Notes under the pieces: generated by a model
Database searches by the model: none
Seen by the model: the letters and a program-made list of their open reading frames with translations, nothing else
Told to the model about the DNA's origin: nothing
Made by a program: the position numbers and the translations under genes
Source of the DNA: Beroe forskalii
Taxonomy: Eukaryota > Ctenophora > Nuda > Beroida > Beroidae
NCBI GenBank assembly: GCA_011033025.1
Contig: WFMF01000054.1
Location: forward strand, 372,001 to 436,000
Reading direction: 5' to 3'
Length of the DNA: 64,000 nucleotides
Shown here: positions 2,696-64,000 of the stretch, piece by piece
Layout of the letters: the number at the start of each line of letters is the position of its first letter
Numbering within the stretch: the first letter of the stretch is position 1

Positions 2696-2726
2696 AAAAA
2701 CTAATGTTTGAATTTTTGTTGCAGTC

Positions 2727-2880: not shown

Positions 2881-3375
2881 ATTCACTCGTACGACCGTAT
2901 TCTTAGAGCATTTTTGATAATTGTTAACATTGACGAATCCAAATTAAGCTAAAACTATCTTCATAGTTGATCGATATGATCTTTTTATATCCAGCGATCA
3001 TTTTAAAGGCAATATAATTGAGGATTGTACGAATGTCTTCGTAATATGTTTCGAATATTATTTATTCATTTTATTTCAAACCTATTTACTTCGCATATTG
3101 AGTCAAAAATATTTATAGTTAATTTTGTGCGACTGCGAGACACAGTCACTCCTTGCAGATCTGTCTTTTCTGTGGACAGAAACGAAAACTCGTCTGGCTG
3201 CGTCACATATACGTGTTCCCTTATCAGTGCAGCATTCTCAGCCATGGTAATGACGTCACTTAATGTTAATACTCAATTATGCTTATAGCATCAGGCAATA
3301 TTGCAAAAATCACGTTGATCAACGTTCGAGTCATGACGTATAGGTATTGGAAGAACTGACTTATATTTCACATTA

Positions 3376-29539: not shown

Positions 29540-30784
29540 AATAAAAAAGCGCCGATTCGGCGATATATTCAATTGGCGTCGCGCGCAGCACCATTTCTCG
29601 CAAAATTGGTGAAACATAGGCCTCTTCAACGCGCGACTGTGAGAAGATTAAGAGGGCAACCCAAATAATTTCTTTTCTATCAGAAAGATGAAGGTTAATT
29701 GATTGTCATGGTGCTTTGTTCAACTTCTGAATCCAATATGGAGCTGAGTTATGAATAAGCAAATATTGGCAATTTTCAACTCAAAATTTTTACATTTTCC
29801 GGACTTTTCCCAGAGAAGCGAGATATACTGCGATGAAGTTTGAACTTTCCTCTAAAAGGTGGTCCAAGCCACTTTCTTGGGAAAAGTCCGGAAGTTTGAA
29901 AGAATCGGCGTTAAAGTTAATTGGTCGCTACTTCACACGTCAGTTTCATATGTTACGCGGCAGAATCCTGCGCTCTGTGTATACGGCTGGGTGTTAGGTT
30001 ACACTGCAGCTACTAGGTATTGATGATAGAGTTTGAGATATTAACAAAATATAGAGTTAGACTCCAATTTGATCATCATTAAATATCAAAATAAGGTAAC
30101 AATAATTATAAATATAAAGCAATCGGTTGTCAAATTTATCGTCAAACCATCAATTTGTAACATTGAAGATTGAAAAAATGTCTCGCTCTCCATCTCACTC
30201 TTTAATGATCGAACGGCAGAGAGGTCACAAGATGTGAGAAATTGTTAATGCTTTTCAATGGATTCATTGAAAAGATTAACAATTCTCACGTCCTGTGACC
30301 TGTCTGCCGTTCGATGATAACCATTGGACATGTTCATTGGACTCCACTGAACATGTCCAATGGATCATCGATTTACATATCCATCGAAAATGATGTATTG
30401 GTACAATTCCTTCAGGTTTAAAATCTTAAAATTAATTTCCAATAATCTTAATACGTTATTTTTCGATGGATTATATAGACATGAATCCAAATCCAATGGA
30501 AATTATATGGATCCATCAGACAAAAATAATACAAAATTTATTCCAGCCCTGTCAATTATGCTATTATGAACGAGTTTTACGGTGATTGTACCCATTGGAT
30601 ATTAAATCGATAGATCCATTCAGTATTTAAATATCGGAATATGCTCAATCACAATTTCTTCTTGTCCATTGAACACAACATTTGAAGTTAAAAAATGGAT
30701 TCTTGGATTCACTGAACGATTTAACCGATAAACGTTATATGGTGTTCAATCGAGATCCTAATATGATCATGTCCAATGGATTTT

Positions 30785-32084
30785 TGTTGTACAGGTCTCT
30801 TCTGTAGAGGTTCAGGTTGTATAGATCCTTCAGGTAGGTCCGCAGGGAAGAGTTGTGAAGCATTGGGATAAAGGAGGGGATTGGGAGAAGGGAAACTCCA
30901 ATGTCGAAACGGATCAAAAGTGTAATCTATCTAACTGAGCATAAACACACACAATCAATGTTTTCAACAATCAGCGTTTTGTTACCATGGTGCAAAGATA
31001 AATAATCATGCTTCTGCACGACTTCTGCTTGTGAATTGTGATATCTCTATCTCCTATATACGATATAAATATATCAACAACTTTACGTTCACAACATACT
31101 TCATCACAACATATACTCCCCCTTTTGCAAGAGGACGCCCCGTCCTCAGTGACCCTAAAAACTGGAAACAGAGCCAGAAAGATAGGAGAAAAATCTAAAT
31201 CGTCTTAAACGTTGACCCAATTCTGCTTCAAGATTTTATAACCTTGCAAAGTTCATCAGAATCATCAATCATAAACGTCAACTTTAATACAATATATCAA
31301 AGATAATAATCATCTTCGTTAAAATAATACAAAATCTCTATCAGCATCAACTCTCTGATTTTTCTCAGTACCATATACTGACCATAATCCATGTTATCGA
31401 ATCCAAAATGACGTTCATGATCGTTGAACCCTGCGCGATATGCTATTCTCACAGAAATGAGTAGGGGATTCTCAGTTCATGAGATCAGTCTTATAAGGGA
31501 GAGGTGATCGATTCTTGCAGGTAAGTCGTCCAAAAGAGGTTCCGTAGACATGACAGGAACTCTCGAAGTCGATCATACATCATAACACAGGAACACAGAC
31601 TATCACTCATCAATGCAGAACTCTTGCACCAATCACCACTATTCCTCATTGCTGTATTACTTGATTGTCGCAGTGTCCGCTCATCATTCGATGTAGCTCG
31701 ATCATTGGAGTTGTGTGCTATGGCAGAACATAGCTGGGGACTACCGTTCGCGCCAGATGTTGTACAGGTCTCTTCTGTAGAGGTTCAGGTTGTATAGATC
31801 CTTCAGGTAGGTCCGCAGGGAAGAGTTGTGAAGCATTGGGATAAAGGAGGGGATTGGGAGAAGGGAAACTCCAATGTCGAAACGGATCAAAAGTGTAATC
31901 TATCTAACTGAGCATAAACACACACAATCAATGTTTTCAACAATCAGCGTTTTGTTACCATGGTGCAAAGATAAATAATCATGCTTCTGCACGACTTCTG
32001 CTTGTGAATTGTGATATCTCTATCTCCTATATACGATATAAATATATCAACAACTTTACGTTCACAACATACTTCATCACAACA
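30785..32084 (-). mobile_element. short non-coding LTR retrotransposon fossil (TRIM-like)
   Basis: Two 327-bp LTRs (30785-31111 and 31758-32084) begin TGTTG and end CAACA and look identical by eye, so the insertion is young. The 5-bp duplication ATTTT flanks it (30780-30784, 32085-32089), and copy A at about 5380 shows the empty site. A purine-rich tract (AAAAGGGGGAGTATA on the minus strand) adjoins one LTR and a primer-binding-type TGGCGCGAACGG adjoins the other, so the element points to the minus strand. The 646-bp interior has no coding capacity. Confidence 0.9.
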
Positions 32085-33879
32085 ATTTTCATATGCTAAA
32101 AAGAGCAGTATGTGGACCTAATAGCTTAATGTACTAATATAGTATTACTTAACACATTTAATCGTCAGTATAATAACTATGAGTAAGGGCACCAACACTC
32201 GATGTGACTACATGATGATGTTAACTGCAGATTGATGGACGTTGAGCTGTTATAACCGTGTTGCTTCCTCCATGAAGTCCATTAACACTGCGATCAGCAT
32301 GAACGATGTCGGCCACCTGAGCTGCCGACAAGGTAGGTAGGTACCTAATAAAGTTTAATAACATTATATTTCGCATATTTTAGTAATTGTAAATGAAGAC
32401 AGGTGATCAACGAGGTTTAGGTTTTAGTTTTAGGTAGGTACCTACAATCATTTTTATCTGACTTCTACTTCTATTGACTTACCAGTTAGCTATTTAGCAG
32501 TCGGCTCTAGAGCTGCCTTGTTGTAGCTGACATCTCCTCTCTTGTCTGTCATGTAGATTGTAGACATATAATCTCCAGAAAATAAGTTGTTCATTGATTC
32601 ATAAATGCAATATCTCAACATATTGGTCTTCATTTTAGGTCGAAAGCAACGCCTTGAAGTTATAAGCAACACGTCGAAAGGTATATACGTCGAAAATTGT
32701 AGGTGAAAAGGATCACACGTAGACTTAGAGACATGTATAGAGTATTCTCGTAGCCAAAGTTTGGATGGTATTCACTACAAGAACTATCTTTTCCTCATCT
32801 CTCTTGAAGATTGAAACCATGATATTCAATTGTCAATTGCTATGAACTTGAAGGATCGTTATTGCAATCCCTTTCAACCTAAAGTACCCTTTCAACCTAC
32901 TTTTTGACCTGTTGCTTTCGATCAGCATTTCGAAGCATTGTGATTGAGCACATGTATAAACAGTGGAGTGGCAAAATATCACTCAAATTATATGGGTTAA
33001 AAGATAAATGATCATTCATAAATATGGCATATCATTGTTAGATTGCAATCACTTTACAATATTGGAAGCATACGATAGCAGAGTCTACAAGCGAAGTGAA
33101 AGAAACACGCGTGCGCTGCCGTATATCGCACGCGCTTACTACTGAACTTGCGATCGAGCAGATTTAGAAACAAGGTAAACAGCGATGTGAGAGCTCCCTG
33201 CTCCAAAAATCATGCGTGAGATTGGATAGCCAATCACAGCCTTCGAATTTCTAGACATGTTTCCCTTTGATGGATTGTCTGTGAGACAATGATCTGTCTT
33301 CTAATCATAATAATAGAATAAACAATATCCCATAAGTCTGCGTTCGATGATTCGAAGAATTTTGTGCATTTTCTCCACATGCCTCTGTTATGATAGCAAG
33401 AGGTCATGGTCGGTGGGGCCTCATTATCACACGATAAACAGTAAATTTATATAATGTGAAATATAAGTCAGTTCTTCAAATACCTATACGTCATGACTCG
33501 AACGTTGATCAACGTGATTTTTGCAATATTGCCTGATGCTATAAGCATAATTGAGTATTAACATTAAGTGACGTCATTACCATGGCTGAGAATGCTGCAC
33601 TGATAAGGGAACACGTATATGTGACGCAGCCAGACGAGTTTTCGTTTCTGTCCACAGAAAAGACAGATCTGCAAGGAGTGACTGTGTCTCGCAGTCGCAC
33701 AAAATTAACTATAAATATTTTTGACTCAATATGCGAAGTAAATAGGTTTGAAATAAAATGAATAAATAATATTCGAAACATATTACGAAGACATTCGTAC
33801 AATCCTCAATTATATTGCCTTTAAAATGATCGCTGGATATAAAAAGATCATATCGATCAACTATGAAGATAGTTTTAGC

Positions 33880-34050
33880 GGGGAACGGACATTTCATCTC
33901 ACGACACTTCATCTCACGACACTTTATCTCGCAATATGTCAGCTCTACGCAAAGGTAAGGGTCTGGGTTAGGGTCAGGGTAAGGGTTTGGGTTAGGGTCA
34001 GGGTTAGGGTTTGGGTTAGGGTTATGGTTAGGATGAGATGTCGCCACCCG
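33880..34050. mobile_element. 171-bp TIR insert carrying telomere-like repeats
   Basis: It is absent from copies A and B at the same site. It is flanked by the duplication TTTAGC (33874-33879, 34051-34056). Ends GGGGAACGGACATTTCATC and GATGAGATGTCGCCACCCG are imperfect inverted repeats. The centre (33957-34030) is a degenerate TTAGGG array (GGGTTAGGGTCAGGG). A CTCACGACACTTCATCT direct repeat lies near the left end. Confidence 0.85.
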
Positions 34051-34350
34051 TTTAGCTTAATTTGGATTCGTCAATGTTAACAATTATCAAAAGGCTCTAA
34101 GAATACGGTCATACGAGTGAATTTCGACGACACACCTGCGACACACCTGCGACACACCTGCGACACATCCACGACACACCTGCGGCACACCTGCGACATA
34201 CCTGCGACATACCTGCGACACACCTGCGACACACCTGCAACACAACTCAAACATAAGTTCTATCGTTATTGCGATACAACTACGACACACCTACGACACA
34301 CCTGCGACACACCTGCGACATACCTGCAACAAAATTCAAACATTAGTTTT

Positions 34351-35309
34351 CTTGACTGACTTGACTGACTTGACTGACGACTTGACTGACTTGACTGACT
34401 TGACTGACTTGACTGACTTGACTGACTTGACTGACTTGACTGACTTGACTGACTTGACTGACTTGACTGACTTGACTGACTTGACTGACTGACTTGACTG
34501 ACTTGACTTGACTGACTTGACTGACTTGACTGACTTGACTGACTTGACTGACTTGACTGACTGGGACTTGACTGGACCGACTTGGACTGACTTGACTGAC
34601 TTGGACTGACTTGACTGACTTGACTGACTTGACTGACTTGACTGACTTGACTGACTTGACTGACTTGACTGACTGACTGACTTGACTGACTTGACTGACT
34701 TGACTGACTTGACTGACTTGACTGACTTGAGACTGACTTGACTGACTTGACTGACTTGACTGACTTGACTGACTTGACTGACTTGACTGACTTGACTGAC
34801 TTGACTGACTTGACTGACTTGACTGACTTGGACTGACCTGACCGACTTGACTGACTTTGACTGACTTGACTGACTTGACTGACTTGACTGACTTGACTGA
34901 CTTGACTGACTTGACTGACTTGACTGACTTGACTGACTTGACTGACTTGACTGACTTGACTGACTGACTTGACTGACTTGACTGACTTGACTGACTTGGA
35001 CTGACTTGACTGACTTGACTGACTTGACTGACTTGACTGACTTGACTGACTTGACTGACTTGACTGACTTGACTGACTTGACTGACTTGACTGACTTGAC
35101 TGACTTGACTGACTTGACTGACTTGACTGACTGACTGACTTGACTGACTTGACTGACTTGACTGACTTGACTGACTTGACTGACTTGACTGACTTGACTG
35201 ACTTGACTGACTTGACTGACTTGACTGACTTGACTGACTTGACTGACTTGACTGACTTGACTGACTTGACTGACTTGACTGACTTGACTGACTTGACTGA
35301 CTTGACTGA
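34351..35309. repeat. 9-bp minisatellite (CTTGACTGA)n, ~0.96 kb
   Basis: Same family as 1471-2695 in reverse complement, with more unit slips (TGACTGACTGA, CTTGGACTG). The 342-356-codon minus ORFs here are repeat artefacts. Confidence 0.95.
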
Positions 35310-35660
35310 CATATGACTTATGAACTTTGAGTGCATTTGTGATGTAATGGGACCGACTGGTCATTGACTAGTTAAGCGTTATCATAAGGCTGAGTGATAT
35401 TTTAAGTGCATTTTAAACAGTCATGATAAGTAAGAATAATGATCAGGGATTGGGAAGTAGTGGGTCAGATCCGGATCGTGTGACCAAGTTTTTATTCTGG
35501 TTGCATCTAGATGGAAACTCTGATCGTACATTTCATACTTTCATACATTGTGAGATAATTTATACTTACCTATCAGTGTTTATAGGTACTGGTACAGTGG
35601 TAGGAGCCGCATGCGCATGAGTTTTGTTTGTAATTGTTGAGCAATCGAGTGTCGAAATCG

Positions 35661-47970: not shown

Positions 47971-49066
47971 CTTACCAAATTATATATAAGATTTTCTGGC
48001 AAATTTTTTAAAATACCATTTTTTGGAAATTTCACAAAATCCTCCCAGTATCAAAAAAATTCCTCCCATTAGCACTGCTAACCGTGCTAACCGTTTATGG
48101 AAACGAAGGACACTGTACTGTAACATATCGAGTTACACTCTATTGAAATGTCTTTAAATTACATGTTGTATACCCCGGGCCTGTCGCTACAGTTGTTAAA
48201 TTGTTTTACATATTTCCGAACAATAGAATACCTGAACTCTGTTGCTTCATTTTATTTTAACTAGAGAACTAGGATCATAATTCCTGATTCCTGAATTCAG
48301 ATCTAAAAAACAAATGATTTTAAACCATTGAGTATCTGCCGTTTGTTTGTGTATGACATCACTGAATTTTGTCGTTGTAAGGTCACTAGTCGACGTATAG
48401 CCTGCTCCAGCTGCTGTTTTAGTGTATCACCTTTCAAAATACACTTTCTCTCAAAGAGACGTTATTGGGAGGGGGCACCTGAGGACTGAGCCATTAGTGG
48501 CATTCCATTGTACTCCTTCGGAAAACACTCTCATTGCACCCACTTCTTAAGGGCATTGAGTTTCCGAAGTCTTCGCTTTGTCTTTGTTATTCTGTTTTGC
48601 GAATCCTTTCAGTAATATCACATCATTGGCTACAGGCGGTCTGTTCTGACGTCTGACAGTGAAGACCTCTTGCTGCTTTGTTTATTGGAACCTCACCTGA
48701 GATTTCTATTGCGCTGTTATTTTACTGACTCAGGACACTTTTTCTATAAATCATCAATTCACTACATAATTCACATCTCGTTGTTATGTCAATAGGTACT
48801 AATTACTATCAGGTTACCAATATCACTTGAAAATCTTTGATCAGCTTTTTGATACCATCGAATCAATTACTGTTACTACACACTCTGAATTTTGACGTCT
48901 CACGACCAAAAGAACTCGTGTTTGGATCTGATCCCTTCTCCTGTTACGGCTCAGTTAGCTGAATTGTCACGTACCAGTCGCCTTCCACCACTAGAAAGAA
49001 AAGAGAGCATGTCACTCTGCAACAGCACGGGTTTCCCACACTCTCTGCTACAGGAGTAGGCATTGA

Positions 49067-49110
49067 AACGTCATCAACTCACCATTATAACTCCTGATAA
49101 TGACGTCACT
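49067..49110 (+). repeat. CRE-bounded motif
   Basis: ACGTCATCAACTCACCAT...CTCCTGATAATGACGTCACT; plus orientation, left CRE half weakened. Confidence 0.85.
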
Positions 49111-50847
49111 CTCAACCACCTTTCAAACGAGCGGTGGATCCTTCTCTTTTACGAGTTTACAGTCACAACCAGTGACGGCTTCTCTTGTCTGAGTGGCATT
49201 TCAATCCGTGGGATTTCCTTCTCCGTGTGAAAGATTTCCAGATACTGAGCTCAAGAAAATGATGGGCGGTTTGAATCTTTGATAATAACATCACTCTCCG
49301 ACTTTTATTTCGCTTGGTACTTGGTTGTGCATTATGGTTCGAGAGATTGTTTCAATGTGAATTGAAGATAGTAATTTCCCATTCCATATTGTGCTTCTCA
49401 ATGCTGCATTGTTATTATAAAAAACTTTGTGCTAAGGATCGTGGGAAAAGGGTGACTATCGAGTAAATTTGCATAATGTACAATGTACATTATCTGTGCT
49501 TATCAATTCCTTATCACGCTTTCTCTGTTAACAATGCTTTAATACTTTAATGGACCGATGGTGAGTTTAGGAGTTTGTTTTAGGGCTTACGAACATGTGG
49601 AAGGGAAACATGTTTGAGCGATTTCTGAATCTTCGAATTTCTTACACTTTAAATATATTCTATTCTTCTATTGTTTTGAACAGTTGTTCAACTGATCATT
49701 TGAGCATCAGAGCATAGGACTTAATTTTGTTAATTTAAGAAAAATCAAGGAATTGGACCTTGAGTTGAGCTCTATTGGCTTCCTTGTACCAACCATCGCT
49801 TGAAAAGTTGTGACTGCTCGTGACTTGTTGGAAATCTCTCTGATGAGTAGATCGATATTTTATAAATTGTAGATTACTGTCATCTTTATCGGGGTGATCT
49901 AAACTTTAGTTTTGATAAATGGGAAGCTAAGATAAATGTTTATATGATCATACAGATAACCAATCCAAGACCACCTTTTAATGCCACGTGAAATCTCAAT
50001 TTTTGAGTCACTATACGATTGCTGCATTTCTTGATGTTATTCCTTGATTTCTGTAAATTTACTCTCACGACCGATATCAAGATTTCAAGAGATGAACTTC
50101 ACATCTTTATTTGACTCCAGTCGCGATGAACTGTAAATCATATCTGTTTTACAACTCAACCCGACGTAAGGGTTTAATTTGAAGATGGTGCAACCCCAAC
50201 CTAAGATATTTCTTCTCCATAAAAATTGAAAAAATCTCCTGTCTTCGTCTTTTCTCCAGCGCCCCAAAAGAAAAAACCATAGATCAACTTAATAAGTTGA
50301 TACTCCGCTCGACATCCCCTGCCAATTATGGGAGCCAGCAACTCTTCTATCAAGTCATTGCCTCTGATCAAAGAATCGGAACCAGTCGTCTGTACCAATA
50401 GCTCAATTGATGTATTACCTGTACAAAAGTCCGCCATGAAACTGTCTGCGGTGTTTTGGTTCACGCAAAGCGGCAAAGACTGCATTCTCTCAAAGGATAT
50501 ATCTGTTTTCGTTATATCCCAGTTCCTTTCAACAGCCCCTGGTCAGCATTCTCCACATTTCATGCAACCTGCACTATTAGCTACTTCTAGTGATGTCATC
50601 ATCATGTTTTAACTGAGTGAATTGATGACGTCACACTACCAGCTACCTGTCACACTGGTTATATCGCAGATCATGCGGCTACAAGTAGCTCTAAGTAGTG
50701 GGGTTTTAGAGGTATTTTTATACACAAAACATACTTTGTATTCTTCTGCCGAGTAACCTGCCTACTTTCTACTATAAACAGTAACTCCATGTCATTGGTA
50801 TAATGGCTGGTGGCACTGGTGTCACATGCCACCCTCTCTCCTTGGTG

Positions 50848-50892
50848 TGACGTCATCAACACACCATTCTAAACCCTGATAATGGCGTCACT
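50848..50892 (+). repeat. CRE-bounded motif
   Basis: TGACGTCATCAACACACC then ATTCTAAA then CCCTGATAATGGCGTCACT; followed, like the copy at 49067, by CTCAACCACC. Confidence 0.88.
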
Positions 50893-51269
50893 CTCAACCA
50901 CCTATTCTCCGTTAGAGAGAGGGTTTCTTCCCAGGTAGCATCCTCTGATCCGCTGTGTTTTGAATCTTTAGTCTGCTCCACCATTCCTCCTTCGAGTGCT
51001 GCTACAACAGAAACAATGGCATTCCAAAACCATTGCGAATCACTTGAGGGGGACATGACATCATCTCATGACATCATACAAGGGGAGGGAGAGTGGGTCA
51101 TACAATGAGGGAGTCAGGGAATGCTGTAATCTGAGTGATTTGCTGTAATGTGAGTGATTTGCCACCAGCTGTTGCCCCACATTGCCACACTGTATTGTGC
51201 AGAGGAAACACCACAGAAATTACTCCGTGAATTATAAGGAAACCTGATCCGGTTGAGATGGGTCTTCGC

Positions 51270-51680
51270 TCAGTGCTGGTCGAGTGCAGAGAATAGGCGA
51301 CTCAGAGTGACGTCATTATCAGGGTTTGTAATGGGGAACTGATGCTTCTCAAACTGTATATTCTTCCCGCGAGGTACGTTGGGTGGAGGGATGGAGTTTC
51401 CTATTGGATGGTGCTCTCTGTTTGGTGATCTACCGCCTTCCAGTTGTTGTGGTGTTTGTCCGATTGGTGACCTCGGACTTCTGTCGGGGGTTTTCAGGTT
51501 GAAAAGTGGCGGTGTTTTTGAAGGCGATCTCGTTAAAATCTCGTTTCCTGTCAATTTGAAATGCCTTGTTTTTACATCATGATGCAATTCATGATTTATT
51601 GTTGAGTGGATCAAAGCACGGCTATCTTGATTACTGATAGCAGTGATATCAGCAGTTTCTAAGTTTCTAATTAAACTCAT
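51270..51680 (-). CDS. candidate 136-aa Ser/Pro-rich protein or exon
   Basis: An ATG-initiated frame runs to a stop. Residues ~50-100 are rich in Ser/Thr-Pro motifs (LTRSPSKTPP, TPDRSPRSPIGQTP, SIPPPNVPRG), as in disordered phosphorylation-regulated proteins. Near the C-terminus FPITNPDNDVTLSRL is encoded by a CRE-bounded motif copy (51306-51344), so a repeat is part of the frame. Composition is more coding-like than that of neighbouring ORFs. A promoter-like cluster of the same orientation lies 3.8 kb upstream (55511-55625). No family is recognised, and chance remains possible at this length. Confidence 0.38.
   Translation of the reverse strand: MSLIRNLETADITAISNQDSRALIHSTINHELHHDVKTRHFKLTGNEILTRSPSKTPPLFNLKTPDRSPRSPIGQTPQQLEGGRSPNREHHPIGNSIPPPNVPRGKNIQFEKHQFPITNPDNDVTLSRLFSALDQH
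51306..51344 (-). repeat. CRE-bounded motif (inside ORF)
   Basis: AGTGACGTCATTATCAGGG then TTTGTAATGGGGAACTGATG; minus orientation. Confidence 0.8.
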
Positions 51681-54002
51681 GGTGTTTTGATATTACCCCG
51701 GGTACAGTAGTTGGGCGTACCAATTGGTGTTCCGTCATCCTGGTTTCTAATTATTAGAATCGAGTGTCACAAAGCGCACTTCTAGTCCACCTCCCCTGGG
51801 AAGGTGTTCTTGCTAATGAGGCTAATTAGGATCTAATTAGGATCTCCAGTAATTGAGTGGCTACTTAGTGACTCCTCCCCTGCTTCTTTTCAAAATGTGG
51901 ATTTGAAGTTCTTGCCACAGCCGCATTTTCCATGTCCTCGTCTTTTCAAATAGTTCCTTGATTTCTTGGAGTTCTTGCAAAACTGTTAGATCTTTCTCAG
52001 CGTTGCTCGTACCATCTCATTTGTAGTTTTGGCGATTTGCATATGAGTTAATCTACTTCCATTGTACGAATCTCCTTTTCCCATCACCGATTTTCACATA
52101 AATCCTAAGCCCTCATTGGACAGTTATTATCTGACACTAGCTAGCATCTTGGCTTCTGATCAAGTCTCAACAACACAGTCTCTCTCCCGCGAACTTAGAA
52201 GTTGATGTTCACACGCTGCCCTGTGAAAACCCCAGATGTTTCGCAACGTCTGTGATAAAGACTGATTTGCAAAGTCTACAACAAAGTCTAAAATATATAG
52301 GGCTGCAGTGCCATCTCGAATATATACTTATCACACTTACGTTATAAATGTCAAGGCCGCGATCTAACTCGTACGTTGACGAATTTGAAAGGATGTATTT
52401 TCCTCTGATTATCCCTGGAAGAAGACAGATTTTCCAAACGATATTTTGAGGATTTGTTAATATATGTCAGTTTTGCGAGTGTTTTAGTAAGGTTTTATTA
52501 CTTTGTGATTTACTTTGCGCGTTTCCCTGGCAACCAATCGCTTGCGGAGTAGATTGTGTTAATTAGATCATTAATAAACGCGCCCTCGCCAGTTAGGTGT
52601 GATATTTTATACCACGCCTCCATTTTAGTAGTGTTTTCTGTTTTAGTAGTATTTTATGTTCTGTTTTGCATAATATTATTCAGTCATATTTTATGCGTGA
52701 ATTTTACGTTCAACTTATCAGTGTGAGTTGGTGGTAAATATAGTAATGAAATAGTAACTAAGTAATAAATATAGTAACTTAGTAACTCAGTAATAAATAT
52801 AGTTATTAAATAGTAACTAAGTAATATAGTAACGAGGTAATAAATATAGTAACTTAGTAAGTTAATGTAATAAATATAGTAACTTAGTAAGTTAATGTAA
52901 TAAATATAGTAACTTAGTAAGTTAATGTAATAAATACACGCATCACATGTTTCTGTTAGCGATATATTTAAAGCAAAGAAGTTCTCCTTGGAATCTCATA
53001 AAGATTATTATCCCTTATTTAAACATCGCAATAAAACTCGAGCATCTTTAATATAAATACAACAAAAGCCCCCTTCACTCGCACGAAAACACTTCGCTTC
53101 ATAGACGTCTTTCATAGGTGTTATGTGAAAAGTAGGCGATTTAAAGCCCCAAATTTCCCTTTTTAATCTCTGATAATGATATCACACTCCTTGACTTATT
53201 GACCGCGAGAGACATCCAAATATCGCGCGTTATATAGAAACCTGTTGCCATATGAAATACATCTCATCTCCTCCATTAGATGAAATCCATTATAAAAAGC
53301 TTTTAGAGTGTACGCAATATCTGTGTATTTGTTATAGAGGAGGTCCGCAGTGTTACTTTGCTGACTTGAGAGTTGTGTACAATCTGTAGTATTGCTATTT
53401 TCTTATCACACGTTGTATAATGTATTCAATAATGTATTTACTTTTCTCTTGTGTACAATTTGTAGTAGTATTGCTATTCAGCTATTTCCTTATCTCGTAA
53501 CACAATTTGTAATGTTTACCTTTCTCATTTCCTCTAATCTCTTTGTATTACAGCTCGAGATAAGATAAGCGGTGATTCAATATTTTTATCAGCCAGTGAT
53601 ATTCTTTCTGATACATCTTTTGTTTCTATATTTGGCATGAAATGCGGCTCAATCTCCACAGTTCATTGGAAGCCACAGTAATTTGTCTCCAGAATGTCTA
53701 AGTTTGTTGTTGTATTTGAACACACTTTGGTCTATGACATTGTTTTAGCGATTGGTACGCTGCATTCTCAAATTCCATATATATACCATTTTGACAACTT
53801 GCTAAACGTAACACTTGACTATCTTCCTAAGGATCTTTGGTCGGTTTACTACAGGGTTATGAAACAAGGCACGTGTTTGTTAGTCATTAGTTCAATCTTC
53901 CTGTGACATCCTGAGCCACCTGGTTTGTAATGAGAGTAGTTTCAGGTGGAACTGTTTACAGGAATACAGATAGAGTTAGAACGAGTATTAGATAGTCCTG
54001 CG
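51681..54002. other. low-repeat region
   Basis: Apart from the tandem repeat at 52735-52935 and a weak CRE-motif relic near 53164 (CTCTGATAATGATATCAC), nothing is recognised. Confidence 0.45.
52735..52935. repeat. AATATAGTAACTTAGTAA tandem repeat
   Basis: Units of AATAAATATAGTAACTTAGT with a final threefold 33-bp unit ending AAGTTAATGT. Confidence 0.85.
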
Positions 54003-54043
54003 TGACGTCATTATCATAGTTTAGAATGGTGAAGTGGTGACAT
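54003..54043 (-). repeat. CRE-bounded motif
   Basis: TGACGTCATTATCATAG then TTTAGAATGGTGAAGTGGTGACATC; minus orientation. Confidence 0.85.
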
Positions 54044-54226
54044 CGAACTGTTATCATCTCGCCAGTTTCCTCTAGTCTCTGATTTTCTCACTAGTTTCTC
54101 CTTGTTTCTCTTCTCAGCACGTACTTCAAACCAGGCTTCAACAGCAGCAACTCACTAGTACAACCCCTCTACGTTTCAACACACTTCACCACTCTGCGAG
54201 GCGTCAGCTCCAGGAAATAGACGGTG

Positions 54227-54268
54227 TGACGTCATCAACTCACCATTTTAAAGCATGATCGTGACGAA
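54227..54268 (+). repeat. CRE-bounded motif
   Basis: TGACGTCATCAACTCACC then ATTTTAAAGCATGATCGTGACG; the right CRE is damaged. Confidence 0.85.
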
Positions 54269-54844
54269 ACTTTGAACCCCCGCTTACTTGCTTGAAGTTA
54301 GGTAGAGTGTGGCTATATCCTAGCACTTCTAATGTACTAAGTAGTTGTTACTGCAGTATCTACTCTTTTTAACACACATTGATGAAATACCACATTTTGT
54401 GTGCTGTTGATGCGTTATTTGGATGCCAGTTCATCCTCACTATTTAATGTTTTGTAGTTTTTATTAAAATCTATTTCATAGTTCCGTGAGTGTTCTCCTT
54501 ACTTCCTTTATTATTTTCCTCACATGAGGTCCCATGTTTGATCTCGTAAGAAGTGATCACTGATTTAAACCATTTCTTTTCAATTCTTATATCGGTTAAA
54601 AGTTTATTAGTAAAAAAACACAACAATGCTCCCAGTAATTTATTGCCCTTTAAAGATGGTGCAGTGCCTCTTAAATGCCCATTTCGAGTGTTCTTATGTA
54701 GAAAACTCCACCAAGATTAAAGGAAAGTAAGAGTAAGAGAAGAAGAGAGAAGCACTCATCCAATGAAAATAACCCTGCACCCTCTCCCCCACTCTGCATT
54801 CCATTGGTATTAACTCACTCCTATACGCCAGACAACAGGCGCTG

Positions 54845-54889
54845 TGACGTCATCAACTCACCATTCTAAGGCATGACCATGACGTCACT
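54845..54889 (+). repeat. CRE-bounded motif
   Basis: TGACGTCATCAACTCACC then ATTCTAAGGC then ATGACCATGACGTCACT. Both CRE palindromes are intact. Confidence 0.9.
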
Positions 54890-55296
54890 ATTGTTAGTGC
54901 AGAGGTTTAAATAAATCGGGTTCTCGGGTGCATTTCTGTGTGTGTTGTGTTTCGACAAAAGTTTACAAAGCTCTCGAGCTCTCAAGAAATACAAGACATA
55001 TCAGTTGCTGTCATGATAACCTTACTAAGTCGTGCTTTGACTTATAAGTAAGAGAAAAAGTTTTTTTAATGAAATCTTATCTGAAACGACTAAACGAGTC
55101 AGGATTTAAAATAAATTACCTGCCTCTTGCTAATCCATCTCCTTTAGCTCGAATGATGTTATACACATTACAAGTAGATTTTAACTACCACATTATTATC
55201 ACGGTGGGTACTGAAGAAACCACCCAACTCCACAAGCTGCTCCCAAGATACTGGCAGGCTCACCTTTTAAAAAGCTGTGATAATATACAGTAGATC

Positions 55297-55430
55297 GAGT
55301 CATCAACTCACCATTCTAAACCCTGATAATGACATCACCAACTCACCATTCTAACTCACCCACTCTAAGCTTTGATAATGACGTCACCAACTCCCCCACT
55401 CTTACCCATGATAATGACGTCACCAACTCC
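55297..55430 (+). repeat. CRE-bounded motif, tandem array of three to four
   Basis: GTCATCAACTCACCATTC...CCCTGATAATGACATCACC is followed directly by two more units ending TTTGATAATGACGTCACC and CATGATAATGACGTCACC. Neighbouring units share the CRE at their junction. Confidence 0.88.
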
Positions 55431-55510
55431 CCCACTCTTCCACCTTTCCTAGCTTGGAGCGTGATCTATTCCCGATACTGCCTGGCTCCCGTTCCCATCC
55501 TGCCCGGCGC

Positions 55511-55625
55511 TATATATAAGCAATATGTTAACCACGAAATCCAGTCTCTGATCACGTGACCTGTGTTCTCTGCCCTGATTGGTCAGCGAGTGTCACGTGA
55601 CACGGATGGGAGGCGCTGATTGGTG
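55511..55625 (-). promoter_or_regulatory. promoter-like cluster, minus orientation
   Basis: Read on the minus strand: CCAATCAG (55618), GTCACGTGAC E-box (55592-55601), GACCAATCAG (55577-), GTCACGTGAT (55551-55560) and then CTTATATATAGC, a TATA box at 55511-55520. CCAAT and E-box upstream of a TATA box is a standard order, predicting initiation near 55480-55490 toward lower coordinates. Confidence 0.5.
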
Positions 55626-56027
55626 GTTGAAAACATCGTCACATCACGTTCGGATCTAAAGCCGTGTTGAAAGCTGTGTTTTATACAAGGGATCTACGTG
55701 TGTTTGGAATTATCTGATGTATTTACTTGTAGCCGGGTTATTCGTCCTGTTTTTAGAGTCATGTTCTCAGCGTCTTGCATAGTTCGGCTATCTTTGCTAC
55801 TCCTTCACCAAAAACCTTTCATGCATTCTTTGTATCATTGGGCATCTTATCGGGACACCTTTCTACCTTGTAACGTGTTGATGTCCACATTCCCCCCTAG
55901 TGAACATTGTATTTACTAATATTTAGTAGTGTTCACAGTGTCCACCGTTAAATGCCTCATGGTGACCGTCTGGTAGCTCTACTCACTACATGCCACTTAG
56001 TTAGCTTGTGAAAAGTGGGCGTTCCTG

Positions 56028-56074
56028 AGTGACGTCATTATCAGGGGTTAGAGTGGTGAGTTGATGGCGTCATC
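56028..56074 (-). repeat. CRE-bounded motif
   Basis: AGTGACGTCATTATCAGGGG then TTAGAGTGGTGAGTTGATGG then CGTCAT; minus orientation, closest to full length on this strand. Confidence 0.88.
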
Positions 56075-56765
56075 TAGTCTACCCACATGCAGCTCCTTTT
56101 ACTCAGCGTGAGAAGAACCTGCAACCATTTCAGATGGAATCGAGTGTTGCCTTTGCACGCTTTTTTGATAAATAGGTTGTTTGTAACTTTGTCCTTTCTA
56201 CATGATGGGGCATACGATAATACGTCCTAAATAAGTCTCTGTAATTAACTTCGCATTAAAAGATTAGGAAATAAATACCCAATTATAGCCCGTGTACTGT
56301 CCCCCAATACCAAGTGAGGTAGTGTTTGAGTGTCTGAATGATGTCACTGCTAAAGTAAGGTTTTATTGGATGTTTCTTACTTGATGATTTGTGTCTGATT
56401 TCGATGCTTTCGAATTTTCCATTTCTTGAATATCGACCTTTTCTTGCTTCAGTTGACATCGCATTACATTTTGATCGCCGTGCTCGAAGAAAAGTGATGT
56501 TAATTGGCATTTTAAACATTGATAATGCCATCCCACGCCCATTCTTAGAACCCTGCAGAAAGTGTAAGCTTGCCCCATCCAATTAGCAACACACAATCCC
56601 TCAATCAAGCATGTGAGGGCGTTTGAATGTCCTGCATAAATGTTGAATGTCCTGTATAAAATAGGTGTAGTTTAGCTTGGCCTTGTTATTGTGGTGAATT
56701 GGTGGCGTCACGTCTCTGATATTCCTTATGGCTGCTCCATCCTAATTCCAATTAGCATCTGAAAC

Positions 56766-56948
56766 TACATGAAATTAAGTACTCCGAAAATTAAGAACGC
56801 ACATTATTAGGCAACACCAAATTAAGCATTTTTCATAGCTATTTTGCTTATTATTTATCATATCAATTTTTGACGTTACACCAAATTAAGTATTTTTTGC
56901 GGCCTGAGTGCTTAATTTTCTGCTTACTTGATTTCATGTACTAAGGTA
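56766..56948. mobile_element. ~185-bp MITE, copy 2
   Basis: Reverse-oriented relative of 39439-39631. The right TIR (ATTTCATGTACTAAGGTA) is intact; the left is shortened to TACATGAAATTAAGTA. Confidence 0.82.
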
Positions 56949-58039
56949 GTATCCGCACTCATGCCTTGTAACTCATTGCTTGTATCTGGCGTGTCACTCA
57001 TTTACCCTGAATCCCGCTTGAATATGCAAGTAAGCTCGAATAACATTTCAAAAATATTACAATGTGTCAACGTGATGTCCTCAAAAAATTTTCTATATCC
57101 AAGCTTTTATTGGTTTCAAATTTCAGTTATTTTTCGTTATCTTTGCCGGGTGCTGAAAACCCTGAAAAGTGCTGTCAAAATCTACGTTTTTTGCATAAAT
57201 TATGTACCACGTAGAGTTATAATTGCTTTACCGCGGACCAAATGTTTGACAAGTTTATATTATTACTCTTTTCGTTACTTTTTGTACCCCTCTCCTTACT
57301 GACGATGTTAGAGCTGTTTGACAACCTAAAATTAGTGTGTGGTTTTGAGGGTAACAATATCGAAGCCTCTCAAAAGAGTTTTCATTTCTACGGCTATTTT
57401 GAGAGCAGTGTTGCTGTGTTCAAATTGAAATGTTTCCCTTGTACTTTTAGGTAGAAGTGTTACTTTCTTAAACCTTGGAAATAATTTTAGCGTAGTCGGT
57501 TTAGACGTTTGTGTAAGCGCTAATAAACTTTCCGGAGTAAAACAATAATTTAGTAATATACTGATGAGAATTATCCCAAATTTTCAATTCATTGAATGGC
57601 CGGATTGAACTATCACAATGATGCTTTTCCCATCTGCCTTTTATTTCAAAGTTTTAATGCTTTCTGTATTGTTATTTGAGTCAAGAACATGCCAGAAATC
57701 ATCATTGGCAAACACTGGCAGCTTTTATCAATCTTCAAAGAGTCAATTATTAAATGTTACTCAGATGTTCCCATAATAATTATGACATAAATCCAGTGCA
57801 ATATAAATATATATTGATTCTTTGATACAGTATAACATATAATATACTTTTCTCTGCCTAATTCTCCTAGACTTGATCTGACACTTCCTCGTCTATTCTG
57901 GAGTGTATTGTCTGATTTCTCTATTTCTGTGATACACTGTGTACTGTAACATTGTAACAGTGTCTCAGTGTGTTGTGACTATTGATAGTACTGCTGAGCT
58001 TCCCACACAATGTACAAGTTTGTAGTATTTCACAAAAAA

Positions 58040-58122
58040 AACTTTGCCAGTCGTCTAATTAACCCTTCAATAATTTCACATTGTGAAATTATTGAAGGGT
58101 TAATTAGACGACTGGCAAAGTT
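58040..58122. repeat. perfect 83-bp palindrome
   Basis: Arms of 41 bp (AACTTTGCCAGTCGTCTAAT through ATAATTTCACA) pair without mismatch around one central base at 58081. Flanks CAAGTTTGTAG and CTACAATTTG extend the symmetry imperfectly. Confidence 0.95.
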
Positions 58123-58586
58123 GCTTTTGCAGCTAAGATTCTACAATTTGTTTGCCCCACATCGATTAGATGTATCGTTGTTAACCGCTTATTGACCTCC
58201 GCTGTTTAGTAATATGATATTATGCAACTTCTAAGGAGGTTTACGCAGTGCTCCTTTATACCCATTATGCACGCTAAAACAGTTACACTTTTTAAAAAGT
58301 GCAACTACAGTGCCAAAAAAGTGGAACTACAGTTGATAATAAAACCATTTTGGCATTGTTCCCCAGTGTTTTTCAAAACGTGACCTTACTATAGCGGGGA
58401 GAGGTGTTAAAATGAACACTGGGGTGACAGACCGCAGATTTCACACTGAAAGATACAGTAGCTGCTCTTATCACAATAGCTCAAATATTATATAGACAAG
58501 CCAATAACACTACATATTCTCATATTCTTGCTTGATTATGCATAATTACTTAATATATGCCTACATTTATTGTCGTTGCATAATTC
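58123..58586. other. no recognised feature
   Basis: AT-rich sequence without ORFs or repeats of note. Confidence 0.5.
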
Positions 58587-58725
58587 GGTTTTGTAACTCG
58601 CAAAAACTGCAAACCTTCCATTAAAACCTCGGCCTTCGGCCTCGGTCTTAATGTGTTATTATGCCCTCGCGCTTCGCGCTCGGTGCATAATATCGCGGTT
58701 TGCAACTTTTGCTAGTTACAAAACC
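58587..58725. repeat. nested palindrome with two CTTCG-loop hairpins
   Basis: Outer arms GGTTTTGTAACT.GCAAAA..TGCAAACC pair with the right end. Inside lie two hairpins of the same design: CATTAAAACCTCGG-CCTTCGG-CCTCGG..TTAATG and ATTATGC..CCTCGCGCTTCGCGCTCGG..GCATAAT. Confidence 0.85.
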
Positions 58726-58840
58726 TCTCAAAATGTAGCTGTCTCCTTCCTCTCCTTGCCAGCCTCTTCCTACACCTGGGTCACGCTTCAAAAGGTTAGT
58801 ATTGTTAGTATTAGCCACAGGTCACTGGTCACAGGTCACT

Positions 58841-58898
58841 GACCAATCAGCACACGAGTTGATCGTTAACTCGCGCACTGATTGGTCGCTTATATGCC
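58841..58898 (+). promoter_or_regulatory. inverted CCAAT pair with TATA-like element
   Basis: GACCAATCAG (58841-58850) and CTGATTGGTC (58878-58887) are exact inverses with GAGTT/AACTC between. CTTATATGCC follows at once. This could start a plus transcript near 58920, 1.5 kb upstream of the Ig-like exons. Confidence 0.4.
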
Positions 58899-60422
58899 AC
58901 CGACATAGGTCAAGTATCATAGCAGTTCGTTTTAACTTCTTTACCTAACATTCTTAAATTGAAATTCCGTGCTGTCTTGATACCACTGAATTTATGACCT
59001 TAAGTGGCACTAGAGAAGCTCCAAAATCCAGGGGGTCCTTTCCGAAGTTAGACCTAAGTCGATTTATTGGTGGTTTTCAGACCCCGACCTACTGGTTAAA
59101 TAGGTTTGCCAGAGTTAGGTGAGGTATACCAGAGATAGGTGAGGCAGTCCTCTTCCCAAGTTCTCAGTTTCCCACGGAAGCCAGCATTGCTTGCTTGGCG
59201 TGTACTAACTGTACCACCTCGCTACACTACCTCCTTGCTTTGATTATAATGGGAATATTAGGATACCGGCTTTCTCACATCATACCACATAGAAGCATAA
59301 AACTCTTCATTACTGTGATAAGGTGATAGTCTACTTTTCTGCTGATAATTAAAGGTTAGACAAGCAGGATTTAGCCCCGTGGGGTGTCAGGCGTGAGTGT
59401 GGTAAATGAGAGTTTACTTGTTACTTACTTAAATCAGTGGGATTCTATAATTAGTTAACCCTGGGGTTTTGTTAGTGGGTAAATGAGGACTGGGCCCATG
59501 GGGCATTATTGAGAGGCGTTGGTGTTTGGCACCCTGGGGCACTAACCTATGCAGATATAGTTGCCTATTATGTGGGTTGATAAGGCGTCAATAATAGTTA
59601 GCTTTTAAGTGGTTGACTGAGGGCTATTAATCTCATGCAGCACTATGTTGCGTGTCTTATCGCATGCACTGTGAGTCCTTTTACCTGAACAGTAGATATG
59701 CACCACCCAACAGGGCTGGAACAGATGTTTTAAATCACTGAATTGCCTTTTGTCAATCGCTAAACACATGTGCAATACCCAAGCAAACTCCATGATGATA
59801 AGTGATATGGCCCTGGGGGATGGACTCTAGACTTGACGAACAAGTTCCTATTTCTCCCCAGGGTCGTCTGGCGGGGGCATCACTAATGGCACTATTCTTT
59901 GTCAGTGTGACACATCTTCTATAGTTAACAGTAGCTCCCCATACAATATGGAATACGTCATAGTTCAGAGATTTAGCACACTGAACCGTTCTTGATTAGT
60001 TGACATAATAGTATGACAAGTGGTTTGTGGTAACAGGTGTCAGATGTGCAGAGGCACTTTTAGTGCGATTTAAATAGGTAAATTAACTTAACAATTGGAA
60101 CATTCAGTGCCACTTATTAAAGGCCTATCAGTACTGACATGATAATAATATGACCTTTGAATGGTCAATGGTCATGGGGCTAATGTGGTTTCGCACTAGT
60201 GACAGTTTTCCCTAATCAATTCGTAAATGTAACATGCCTTCAATTCATGTATTGATAGCATCAGAAAAATACCTTTTGTACTTTGCAGGCTGTTCAGTCA
60301 TCACTAAGTTTATATCAAACTGTAAAAGTATATCATTGTCATTTTCCGTAAGGAGTAACCCAGTTATTTGGGTATTTCCTTGTTTTCCTCACCTTTTTTC
60401 CTCACCTGTTTTCATGTTTCAG
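58899..60422. other. no supported gene
   Basis: Possible 5' region or intron of the Ig-like gene. I could not find an ATG exon with compatible phase. Confidence 0.4.
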
Positions 60423-61010
60423 GAGTCGCATCAGTGGTGTTGGAACGTGCATGTGAAGTCTACGAAGCCCCAGGTAGGCCCCCCCTTCCTCTTTGATCGA
60501 AGTTGATTTATTTCGTGTTAACGATTTCTCGTAAAATAGGAGTCGAGTAGAAGCAGGGGCAAAATGTTGAACTTGAAAATTTGAATATTGCCGTTAGAGT
60601 TTAAATTGTATGTTCTAATTATAGATATTGAATTGTATTTCGCTAAGTAGCTGTACCGTTACATACTGGTATTAATTAATTAAAGTAGGTAACAGGAATG
60701 ACTCAATTAGTACATTTTACTGTACCTGCCTTCCAAAAGTGTATGCGATAGTTCTGATATTTCGCCATATTTCCAAGGATAGTCTTGTTTCCGCTGCACC
60801 AAAAACTTGGAATCACCAGTCAAGCATTCCAACACTTGACTCATCCCTTTATTCACAACTACCCTTTTTTCCACCAGGCACGTATTTGGCATACCAAGGA
60901 GACGGGAACAAGTACATGACCTGTAGCTGGAATGACACGGACTCAGAGATTACCAGCTTCCAGTGGTCCCTCAACGGAAACCCCTTCACTCCTACCATCT
61001 ACAGTCACGA
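60423..61010 (+). CDS. immunoglobulin-domain protein, two exons
   Basis: Exon 60423-60473 (acceptor TTTTCATGTTTCAG, donor CAG-GTAGGC) and exon 60878-61010 (acceptor CTTTTTTCCACCAG, donor GTGAGT) join in phase 1. The joined reading is VASVVLERACEVYEAP, G, then TYLAYQGDGNKYMTCSWN and a segment ending SFQWSLNGNPFTPTIYSH. Cys in MTCSW and Trp 14 residues later in FQWSLNGNP match the B-strand Cys and C-strand Trp of Ig folds. The region before it could be the start of the mature protein. NDT is a possible N-glycosylation site. The last exon ends in phase 2; the rest of the Ig domain, including the second core Cys, must lie further downstream. Ig domains in this setting are usually extracellular adhesion or receptor modules. 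Confidence 0.62.
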
Positions 61011-61429
61011 GTGAGTTGAGAGATAGGGGAATGTTATTGTTGAGAAATATTTCAAATAATTTACAAATTTCCTACTTGGAGAGTTGAACACTTTCCCTTT
61101 CTCCTTTTGAATCTGTTTCTTGTACTGCCCCTGTCCTTATTGCCTTTATGACCTTATTTTAACTTTATTCACCAATTCATTTGGGTTTTAGGAATTGAAT
61201 ATCCTTCATTAAGTATATCAAATCTAAACGGTTGTTAGCTTTTTAGGGTACATACCTACATCTATAATCGTGTAATCGTCTTATAATCAAACTACAACCT
61301 GTATTTACTTATACCCATTACTTCAATACATCCCTTGTTTCGCTCAGGTTCTTTCTGAAGCCTTAAAACGTTCAGAGTCGCTATAATCTGTAACTACAGT
61401 AACCGACCAATACAGTGCAAATACGTGCG
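61011..61429. other. probable intron
   Basis: Sequence following the GTGAGT donor; no exon with a matching phase was recognised. Confidence 0.4.
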
Positions 61430-61580
61430 GTCATCAGCCAATAGGGTACCAGCATCCGGCAGTCGTCAGCCAATAGGGGACAGGCATCAGCCAGTCCTCA
61501 GCCAATAGGGACCGATATCAGCGCGAAGACGCCTAATTAGCTCACTTGTGACAGCTGTAAAATGGCATTCTATTGGCTGG
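61430..61580. promoter_or_regulatory. CAGCCAATAGGG repeats, 32-bp period
   Basis: GTCNTCAGCCAATAGGG starts at 61430, 61462 and 61494, exactly 32 bp apart. GACCAATAC precedes (61405) and an inverted CTATTGGCTGG follows (about 61570). The result is an array of NF-Y-type CCAAT boxes at three helical turns. Confidence 0.6.
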
Positions 61581-61859
61581 TTATAGAAGAATCTGCTTCC
61601 ATTATCCAGCTTATTAAAATAAGCTAGTAAATAACGAATATAAGCTACATAACACATTGGCAAAGATTTCACACCGCCGTCGCCCACTATAATAATATCG
61701 CGTCAAATTTCGAGCCTGGTTATTACTATTTTCGTCACTTAGTACATAATATTTGGAATTTTTCTCTATCCTCACTTCCCAGCGTATAATGAAGGATGTG
61801 ACCTCGATTCACGGGTATCATAATGTCGGCATTGCGGTTGATAGCAATAACACTTCTGA

Positions 61860-61900
61860 AGTCGTCAACACACGATTCTAACACATGATAATGACGTAAC
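61860..61900 (+). repeat. CRE-bounded motif, diverged
   Basis: AGTCGTCAACACACGATTC then TAACACATGATAATGACGTAAC; both CRE ends are mutated by one or two bases. Confidence 0.75.
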
Positions 61901-62030
61901 TATTCTCCCTCACCCAGTATACAGGGTACATTGTACTCTTTAATAAGGGCAGTAGCTGTAATGTCTGGGGTCATGAGCTGAAGGGACGCCATTACGTCTG
62001 AGAGCGGGGGACACTCTTCAGTGCTCCTAA

Positions 62031-62077
62031 GTCACGTGACATTTGCAGGGGGTTTGATTGGTGGCAAAGTCACGTGA
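62031..62077. promoter_or_regulatory. paired E-boxes with CCAAT
   Basis: GTCACGTGAC (62031-62040), GATTGGTGG (62056) and GTCACGTGA (62069) within 47 bp, the same components as at 55551-55625. Confidence 0.45.
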
Positions 62078-62206
62078 TAGTAACATGTGGTCTGTACAGG
62101 GTGGTTTGAGAGGGTGGTACCCTGCATGAACACAGTAGAGATATGATATTCCCGCCTGAATGCGTATCAGAGCACTTCATACCACAGGATGAATGGGTGG
62201 TTGAGA

Positions 62207-62247
62207 GTGACGTCATTATCAGGGGTTAGAGTGGAGACTTGGTGACG
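62207..62247 (-). repeat. CRE-bounded motif
   Basis: AGTGACGTCATTATCAGGGG then TTAGAGTGGAGACTTGGTGACG; the left part matches 56028 exactly. Confidence 0.85.
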
Positions 62248-63229
62248 AAATAGGAGTGTAGAAGCATCAGGAGTCCTCTCTTAATTCCCTAATTTATTGT
62301 ACCTAACAGATCATACTGCTACTTTGATAATGAAATCTTAATTAGTTAACTGGCCGTCTCAATGGGTATTAGGAGATAGGAGAGACAGTTAATTAGATTA
62401 GTTATTAACTTGTTTAATGCATCTACCTACTTCACTTTACTAATTACTGTAGATACAAACGACAATAATGCCTTCAAGTACTTTAATGCCAATCACCATT
62501 GAATTGAGGTATTCTTAGCTCCATTTGGAATGACTGCTAAGATGTTATGCACCAGTTGGTTTGGTCATTTCTTAACAAGTATCCACTAAAATTTAATAAA
62601 GTCATCACTTTGACACGATGTTGAGATAACCGCATACAGTTGTTTCAATACCGCGATAAAAGTGTCAAAACCAGTCACGCGATGTGCGGTTGCCATGGAA
62701 ACGTTAATTCCACCTCTCAGAGATCATGATGAGTGGATACCAGCATTATAAACCTTTATAAAGACAATTCTCATATTCAGATATTGTTCTAACTAAATTC
62801 AGGGATAATTATTGCCTAAATACTAAATTGTTACAGTTCTTGGTCCCATTTTCGTCACTAACACGCATACTTAGTGCACGATAATGGGTCAGGATTCCAA
62901 TAAAGAACATGAATGCGAGGGTCAAATATTTAATTCTAGTTGTGCTGTGACGCCTCTCTCAAATCATGCTCCTCGCTGGCTCGCTGATGCTTATATTATG
63001 TCTCATAAGATCACCTCTCAAAATAGGAGCTTTTAAGAGATGTACATTTTACTGCGAGTAAACTATCATTCAGTAGGGGTCTTTCAACTACGACTTGTTC
63101 AGAGAAATATTTTAATATTTTAAGTAAATGAATTGACATGCTGTGTCTGAGGTCTATCATCAAATCTCCAGATTTTTATACAAATCATTGATAAATTTCA
63201 AATGTTGGTACTGCGATGTACCACCCACT

Positions 63230-63340
63230 ACGAAACCCTTTTTAAGTGTGAAACCTTCCACTGTACCTTACTGAAAAAGCGTGTTAAAGTGTGAAACCCT
63301 TCACTCAAAAACCTGTGTTAAAGCGTGAAATCCTCATCTG
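63230..63340. repeat. GTGAAACCCT short tandem
   Basis: Three to four degenerate ~40-bp units with GTGTTAAAG(T/C)GTGAAACCCTTCACT. Confidence 0.65.
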
Positions 63341-63605
63341 TGGCTCATGGAATATGGATCATGCCATGAAAGACGGGGTTCTGATGGTTTCAAAGAAGAG
63401 CCAATTATCTGACTGAATTATAATTTAAAGTACGGCCGTGTTGGAAGTTCTATGATATCCTGGAAGGCTTCTCCCCTGCTCCTTACATCCCATATTGTGT
63501 AGGTACTGTTAGTGCCACACTGTAGAACCCAGCAAATGCAGAATTTTAAAACTTACGAATCGTATGGGTTCTATGTTACCTTGTGTCCGAGTAGAGTAGT
63601 TGGTT

Positions 63606-63646
63606 GTGACGTCATTATCAGGGCTTAAGGTGGTAAGTTGATGACG
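63606..63646 (-). repeat. CRE-bounded motif
   Basis: TGACGTCATTATCAGGGC then TTAAGGTGGTAAGTTGATGACG; minus orientation. Confidence 0.85.
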
Positions 63647-64000
63647 CAGAATCGCCTGCTTCACTGCAAACAAGTAAAACAAGCCGCGTACCCCTCACAA
63701 GTTGACAAAACAAGTTGAATTACGAGGCCTCACGATGCCAACGCGTAGGAATTCAGTGTAGAAACACGCCCAGCGTTTAATTTAAAAACAAACATCTGAA
63801 TTATATTCCTGATCGAGAGTAGTAAAATACTGGGATTCTTGCACAAGATATTATGGACCGGAATTCTCGAATCACAAAGTCATACTCATAACTTCTGCAA
63901 TTAATTTAGTACGGGTCTTTGCAAATATTTTCTTATTTTATTTGCAGTAAGGATATTCACTGATTCCACTAGCAGATCTCCCCTTCCACTAACACTAACA

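Follow-up and report, generated by a model that had tools for sequence, protein, structure and literature searches.

The window, the whole 64-kb stretch of DNA that was analysed, contains a cluster of copies of a 43-bp motif with a left half, a right half and CRE-like palindromes at its ends. Of the perfect palindrome, TGACGTCA, the window has 18 occurrences, compared with 0.84 expected from 100 dinucleotide shuffles. The 43-mer itself is found at 10 places with at most 8 mismatches and at 15 places with at most 14, while each of ten dinucleotide-shuffled windows gave no match within 14 mismatches. The copies in the cluster are as follows.

49066..49108, + strand: core copy, 5 mismatches, followed by the right-end remnant ctctcaaccacc
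50591..50633, − strand: diverged core copy, absent from the preliminary description, 10 mismatches
50848..50890, + strand: core copy, the best preserved in the window, 2 mismatches, with right-end remnant ctctcaaccacctattctc
51308..51350, − strand: core copy, 11 mismatches overall, with right-end remnant ctctgagtcgcctattctc
54003..54045, − strand: core copy, 7 mismatches
54227..54269, + strand: core copy, 7 mismatches, with the clearest left inverted-end remnant, ggaaatagacggtg, in which 3 of 14 end letters are mismatched
54845..54887, + strand: core copy with both CREs intact, 5 mismatches
55295..~55440, + strand: tandem array of the unit, with left-half matches at 55295, 55330, 55379 and 55415
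56030..56072, − strand: core copy, 3 mismatches
61857..61899, + strand: core copy, 8 mismatches
62208..62250, − strand: core copy, 7 mismatches, with right-end remnant ctctcaaccacc
63607..63649, − strand: core copy, 8 mismatches, with a left inverted-end remnant in which 4 of 14 letters are mismatched

The preliminary description named 12 places, and 11 of them hold copies whose coordinates agree to within 3 bases; the outlier at 37824 is a right-half remnant only, and the copy at 50591 (−) is additional. The same description placed the CRE TGACGTCA in the outer 8 bp on both sides of the motif, which applies to some copies, such as that at 54845, and not to all. The copy at 51308 (−) is well preserved in its right half alone, the 18 bases of which have no mismatch. 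An open frame of 140 aa on the − strand (51270-51692) runs across this copy; it has no Pfam match and may be due to chance. The units of the array at 55295 are spaced by steps of 35, 49 and 36 bases, and no exon was recognised at its right end (55295..55440). Further matches at 3216, 22498 (−) and 33569 (−) share mainly the right part of the motif and are located inside nearly identical long repeats. A search of the window with Rfam at the gathering threshold gave no match and a tRNA scan found nothing, so a structural-RNA or tRNA-type SINE origin is unsupported here; seven ORFs of the window gave nothing above the Pfam cut-off. The cluster in the window is a set of decayed single copies of an element family, together with one short array.

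The family extends over the whole genome (216 Mb in 1,134 contigs). In the genome-wide scan that the preliminary description had proposed, the two half-motifs have thousands of matches and the controls, in which the motif is read backward, have next to none. With at most 2 mismatches, the left half has 2,055 + 1,927 = 3,982 matches (control 2 + 7 = 9) and the right half 2,900 + 3,101 = 6,001 (control 4 + 1 = 5). A 35-letter stretch with at most 3 mismatches is matched 344 + 352 times, and an end motif, CGCGAGAAATAGGCGG, with at most 1 mismatch 572 + 553 = 1,125 times; both controls are 0 + 0. These counts take in each unit of an array, and the repeat counts are lower bounds. Since copies occur genome-wide, simple local duplication is excluded as their origin.

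Better copies outside the window reveal the anatomy of the element. The core consists of a single 35-bp unit with a second CRE-like palindrome closing it, and it is enclosed by inverted ends of about 27 bp which read inward as TAAACGCCGCGCGCGAGAAATAGGCGG. The motif is thus part of a longer repeat that has termini of its own, the finding that the preliminary description had named as contrary to its proposal. That description saw no longer terminal inverted repeats and considered the motif not to fit a MITE, and both statements have to be withdrawn; the MITE was wrongly ruled out because the decay of the copies in the window conceals their ends. Decayed remnants are nevertheless visible there, the right flank ctctcaaccacc being an end remnant at the copies at 49066, 50848 and 62208. 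Its suggestions of a tiny element and of copying that involves more than the CRE were right. Both ends are present in 25 elements, from a sample enriched for good ends (20 loci chosen for the end motif, plus the other loci of the analysis). The cores of 22 of these, one of them an array, are closer to a second subtype, V, whose core we read as TAAACGCCGCGCGCGAGAAATAGGCGGTTCAACGTCATCAACTCACTACATTGAGCTATGATAATGACGTCATCCTACCCGCCTATTTCTCGCGCGCGGCGTTTA, and those of 3 are closer to the U core of the window. Among the 21 single V copies, 14 have their end motifs exactly 77 bp apart, and the spacing in the others is 76-84 bp. Two full copies fold with z-scores of −8.4 and −9.9, a two-unit array with −2.7, and two window copies with −1.3 and −0.1.

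The flanks of the elements are less regular. Flanking direct repeats with a score of at least 24 occur at 8 of 131 places, compared with 1.1 expected from permuted flanks; two of the eight are doubtful, since at L044 it is the element's own unit that is repeated and at L027:9115 the repeats lie 47-71 bases off. Among the 25 both-ended elements, 5 have flanking repeats with a score of at least 18 (0.25 expected). The shortest of these repeats are about 10 bp long and the longest about 45 bp, and one end of the element is truncated in some cases (L002, L045, L047), so not every copy resembles a clean cut-and-paste insertion. By eye alone, 6-bp flanking repeats are seen at L033 and L035, and TA at the outer ends of many copies.

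Miniature inverted-repeat transposable elements (MITEs) form a class that includes a TA-ended kind derived from Tc1/mariner elements. The present element is like them in its length of about 105 bp, its inverted ends, its hairpin and in being too short to code. Of the features that characterise MITEs, a short element with terminal inverted repeats and a high copy number with mostly uniform length are both found here, and in these respects the single copies fit a MITE-like class; the element is perhaps of the TA-ended Tc1/mariner-derived kind. It differs from a simple MITE in the long, variable repeats (about 10 to 45 bp) that flank some copies, and from MITEs in general in that its core multiplies into 35-bp arrays. 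No title or abstract opening found in a literature search for prior descriptions describes this element family.

The core might instead be a dispersed enhancer module, in which two CREB/ATF (bZIP) sites at a fixed spacing of 35 bp were spread or kept for gene regulation. Many copies do carry a perfect TGACGTCA, and single copies (n = 113) show high conservation of the right CRE, at 0.92 or more per base. The left CRE, however, is less conserved in these copies (0.59-0.95 per base) and in the V subtype is usually CAACGTCA; joint conservation of both palindromes across the family, which such a module calls for, was not found. Since copies have transposon-type ends, and the ends of arrays tend to coincide with splice junctions as described below, an enhancer module appears very improbable.

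Besides single copies, the 35-bp unit forms head-to-tail arrays in which neighbours share a palindrome and the number of units ranges from 2 to at least 19. Right ends were examined in 31 arrays: 19 in which two or more units match with at most 13 mismatches, the array of L010 (31-bp unit, identified by eye), four of 20 short flanks (L060, L067, L069, L070) and seven of eight tandem runs, the exception being L077, whose end was not reached. Places were chosen from lists of motif matches and not for exons, but the tandem runs were chosen after the pattern described below had been noticed; two pairs of arrays in the sample, L008/L009 and L074/L075, are related. Outside the 31, seven looser two-unit places, in which the second unit is too diverged, bring the wider total to 38. 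No exon was recognised at the right end of any of the seven, which are:

L012:4981-5058
L022:1882-1959
L023, from 5067, − strand
L026, from 5100, − strand
L026, from 3042, − strand
L027, from 7322, + strand
the array in the window

The right end of the array abuts a coding exon at a splice junction in 11 of the 31 arrays (11 of 38 with the looser places), and no exon was recognised at the other 20 right ends. Of these 11 arrays, six are at acceptors and five at donors.

Acceptor side: L007, L019 (two arrays), L060, L069 and L078; AG ends 3 to 22 bases past the last CRE
Donor side, opposite strand: L010, L011, L027, L072 and L073; the donor letters are GTGAGT in three, GTGAGC and GTGGGT

The exon at L069 is a WH1 domain (Pfam, 4.6e-12), and that at L011 matches NUDT9/TRPM2 in the PDB (1.2e-9). 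Below the Pfam cut-off are matches of the L027 exon to IMD (1.9e-5) and of an L019 exon to PUFD (6.1e-5, with a weak PDB echo, 0.26). At L073, the next exon across the array intron (L081) is a PDZ domain (4.1e-10). Domains of these kinds (WH1, IMD, PDZ, PUFD and TRPM2-like) suggest that the genome is that of an animal. The remaining six of the 11 exons were recognised solely by an open frame and splice letters. Pfam gave no match for the exons of L007, L010, L011, L019:5180-5278, L060 and L072, a PDB search with the L010 exon gave none either, and the Pfam match of the L078 exon is sub-threshold and unconvincing. L007 may resemble collagen, L010 anoctamers, L078 SLC35F and L073 DLG. Not among the 11 are L013, where some windows of the right flank score as coding and no clear splice junction was read, and the paralogous L074 and L075. 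These two arrays start about 33 bp past the stop of a G-alpha-like frame (8.9e-6, under the Pfam cut-off), in what is presumed to be the 3′ UTR.

The letters of the unit bear on both kinds of junction. Read forward, it places CTAAY roughly 20-40 bases before the acceptor; read in reverse, it carries GGTGAGTT, which matches the consensus donor. By eye, four of the six acceptor arrays have CTAAC or CTAAT in the last unit; L078 has CTTAC there, and L069, with GTAGC, is without CTAAY. At the place of CTAAY, 56 of 106 array units fit YTNAY compared with 29 of 113 single copies, the units within one array not being independent. Array-edge letters are compatible with splice signals and, judged from their sequence, may supply them. 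A stand-alone intron of 24-25 nt within the unit (GTGAGT...CAG) was considered and dropped, there being no evidence for it and its length being very short. At L010, about 20 units of 31 bp (1502 to ~2140) include GATATG, the last exon letters before the donor; letters of the exon edge have therefore been multiplied along with the unit.

All 11 exons are located on the right side of the forward unit, for which equal odds on either side give a two-sided p of about 0.001, a value computed once the pattern was known. Right ends of arrays also lie against coding exons more often than expected by chance. As a control, a codon-usage score, whose training set was three long exons without an adjacent array, was calculated for windows of 66 bases at a distance of 6 bases from the ends. 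It detects coding sequence at 5 of 21 right ends and 0 of 20 left ends of arrays, at 2 of 116 right and 0 of 101 left flanks of single copies, and at 3.0% of 8,000 random places. The signal at right ends fades to background within about 60-100 bases. In a version with the L011 exon in the training set, threshold 6 was passed by 4 of 23 right ends and by none of 21 left ends. In a further version, with three windows and thresholds 4 to 8, the right ends gave 1 to 6 of 23, the left ends 0 of 21 and random places 1.4-4.6%; its p against random places at threshold 6 was 0.023, 0.023 and 0.0004 for the three windows, and at its strictest threshold no more than 1-3 of the 23 right ends pass. These figures come from trials of several windows and thresholds, and short exons are missed by the score. 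The one-sided docking could reflect selection against the opposite orientation, which would put decoy donors before acceptors, an insertion preference, or both.

Head-to-tail short units are also a feature of intronic minisatellites, which can lie next to splice sites, and the arrays might be ordinary minisatellites tolerated anywhere in introns, close to exons because introns are short and because arrays that break splicing are selected against. The introns seen are indeed short (243, 252, 317 and 373 bp), and selection against decoy donors before acceptors is a possible source of the orientation rule. The effect is absent, however, at the same distance from the left ends of arrays (0 of 20) and from single copies (2 of 217 flanks), and the coding signal at right ends has reached background within about 60-100 bp. 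Unlike such minisatellites, a single dispersed family here provides the units at unrelated genes, and its orientation towards the exon is fixed in the 11 cases seen. This account, which overlaps in part with the best explanation, is considered doubtful.

Introners are the nearest known kind of element for the arrays, even though two of their defining features are lacking in the cases tested. As set out in PMC9860276 and PMC7789003, they too are repeated sequences linked to splice junctions in several genes, with inverted repeats. Introners with terminal inverted repeats have been described and are more frequent in aquatic organisms, and within animals and land plants introners have been found in two groups only, both of them animals (PMC9860276). 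Under this reading the element inserts into exons and its ends become those of a new intron. Consistent with it, most of the 252-bp intron of the PDZ gene (C223:265835-266086) and much of the 317-bp intron of the L086/L078 gene consist of the array. Moreover, the exon end and donor of L027 are repeated beyond the array (25 identical bases), at L072/L080 the exon end and donor are likewise repeated beyond the array in diverged form, and at L045 a single copy sits next to a donor between repeats of exon-like sequence. On the other hand, in all four introns that were read at both ends (two in L019, that of the PDZ gene and that of L086/L078) the array touches one end only, and the other end is 41, 59, 125 or 223 bases away. 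Single copies, too, seldom touch exons (2 of 116 right flanks, 0 of 101 left).

Paralogues bear on the second feature, the lack of an intron where the element is absent. The TRPM2/NUDT9-like exon of L011 has 10 matches in the genome, and three of the other nine were read over 80 bases. In L087 and L088 the frame continues across the junction, with no intron there. L089 is coding to the same codon and phase as L011 and continues with GTAAGG and 45 more bases, and these 51 bases contain no array letters; the array-less intron was therefore probably there first and the array came later. The array could alternatively have been lost from L089, and a single gene family makes no rule. In other PDZ-like frames the place of the array intron is read through as well, but this carries little weight since different PDZ domains need not share introns. 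With arrays that are tandem, that meet one intron end and that in one paralogue test favour an older intron, insertion of the introner type seems unlikely. Judging from these sequences, arrays probably settle in existing introns.

The reading that we favour, and hold to be likely, is that the motif forms the core of a palindromic, non-autonomous MITE-like transposable element, only about 105 bp long, whose core arrays come to occupy the ends of introns that were already there. The element would have spread to over a thousand recognisable copies, with a transposase presumably supplied in trans. Its core would have multiplied head to tail, successive units sharing a palindrome, to give minisatellite arrays, which most likely settled at the ends of pre-existing introns or grew there. 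With the unit in the sense direction, a branch-point-like CTAAY would usually be present in the last unit, and the next AG would serve as acceptor; in the antisense direction, GTGAGT-like letters at the edge of the array would serve as donor. Arrays would thus take over splice-signal letters, leaving splicing intact and the intron longer.

A more far-reaching form of this proposal is put forward tentatively. The core would be two-faced, providing a branch point and acceptor context one way and a donor the other way, so that arrays could settle against the edge of an exon whichever way the gene runs. There they would replace the splice signal with their own and create or extend introns through repeat expansion, a route of intron evolution distinct from simple introner insertion. 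One animal genome offers a natural series of sequence-related events at splice junctions. If the arrays supply working donors and branch points, the remodelling or building of introns by repeats becomes directly testable, and the arrays illustrate how splice-site material for both gene directions can arise from a tiny transposon core.

The window has several other features. Long repeats with 95-100% identity, in direct and inverted order, occupy 1308-5646, 21099-22633, 26643-27800 and 29684-35482; they contain the right-half copies at 3216, 22498 and 33569, as well as 9-bp (GTCAGTCAA) and 11-bp satellites, and look like a young large mobile element. Amid the motif copies, 60878-61010 (+) is a probable coding exon, GTYLAYQGDGNKYMTCSWND..., with acceptor CCACCAG and donor GTGAGTTGA; the ORF around it has no Pfam match. 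At 58040-58122 there is a perfect inverted repeat with 40-bp arms and a 3-bp loop, the sequence of which is unrelated to the motif.
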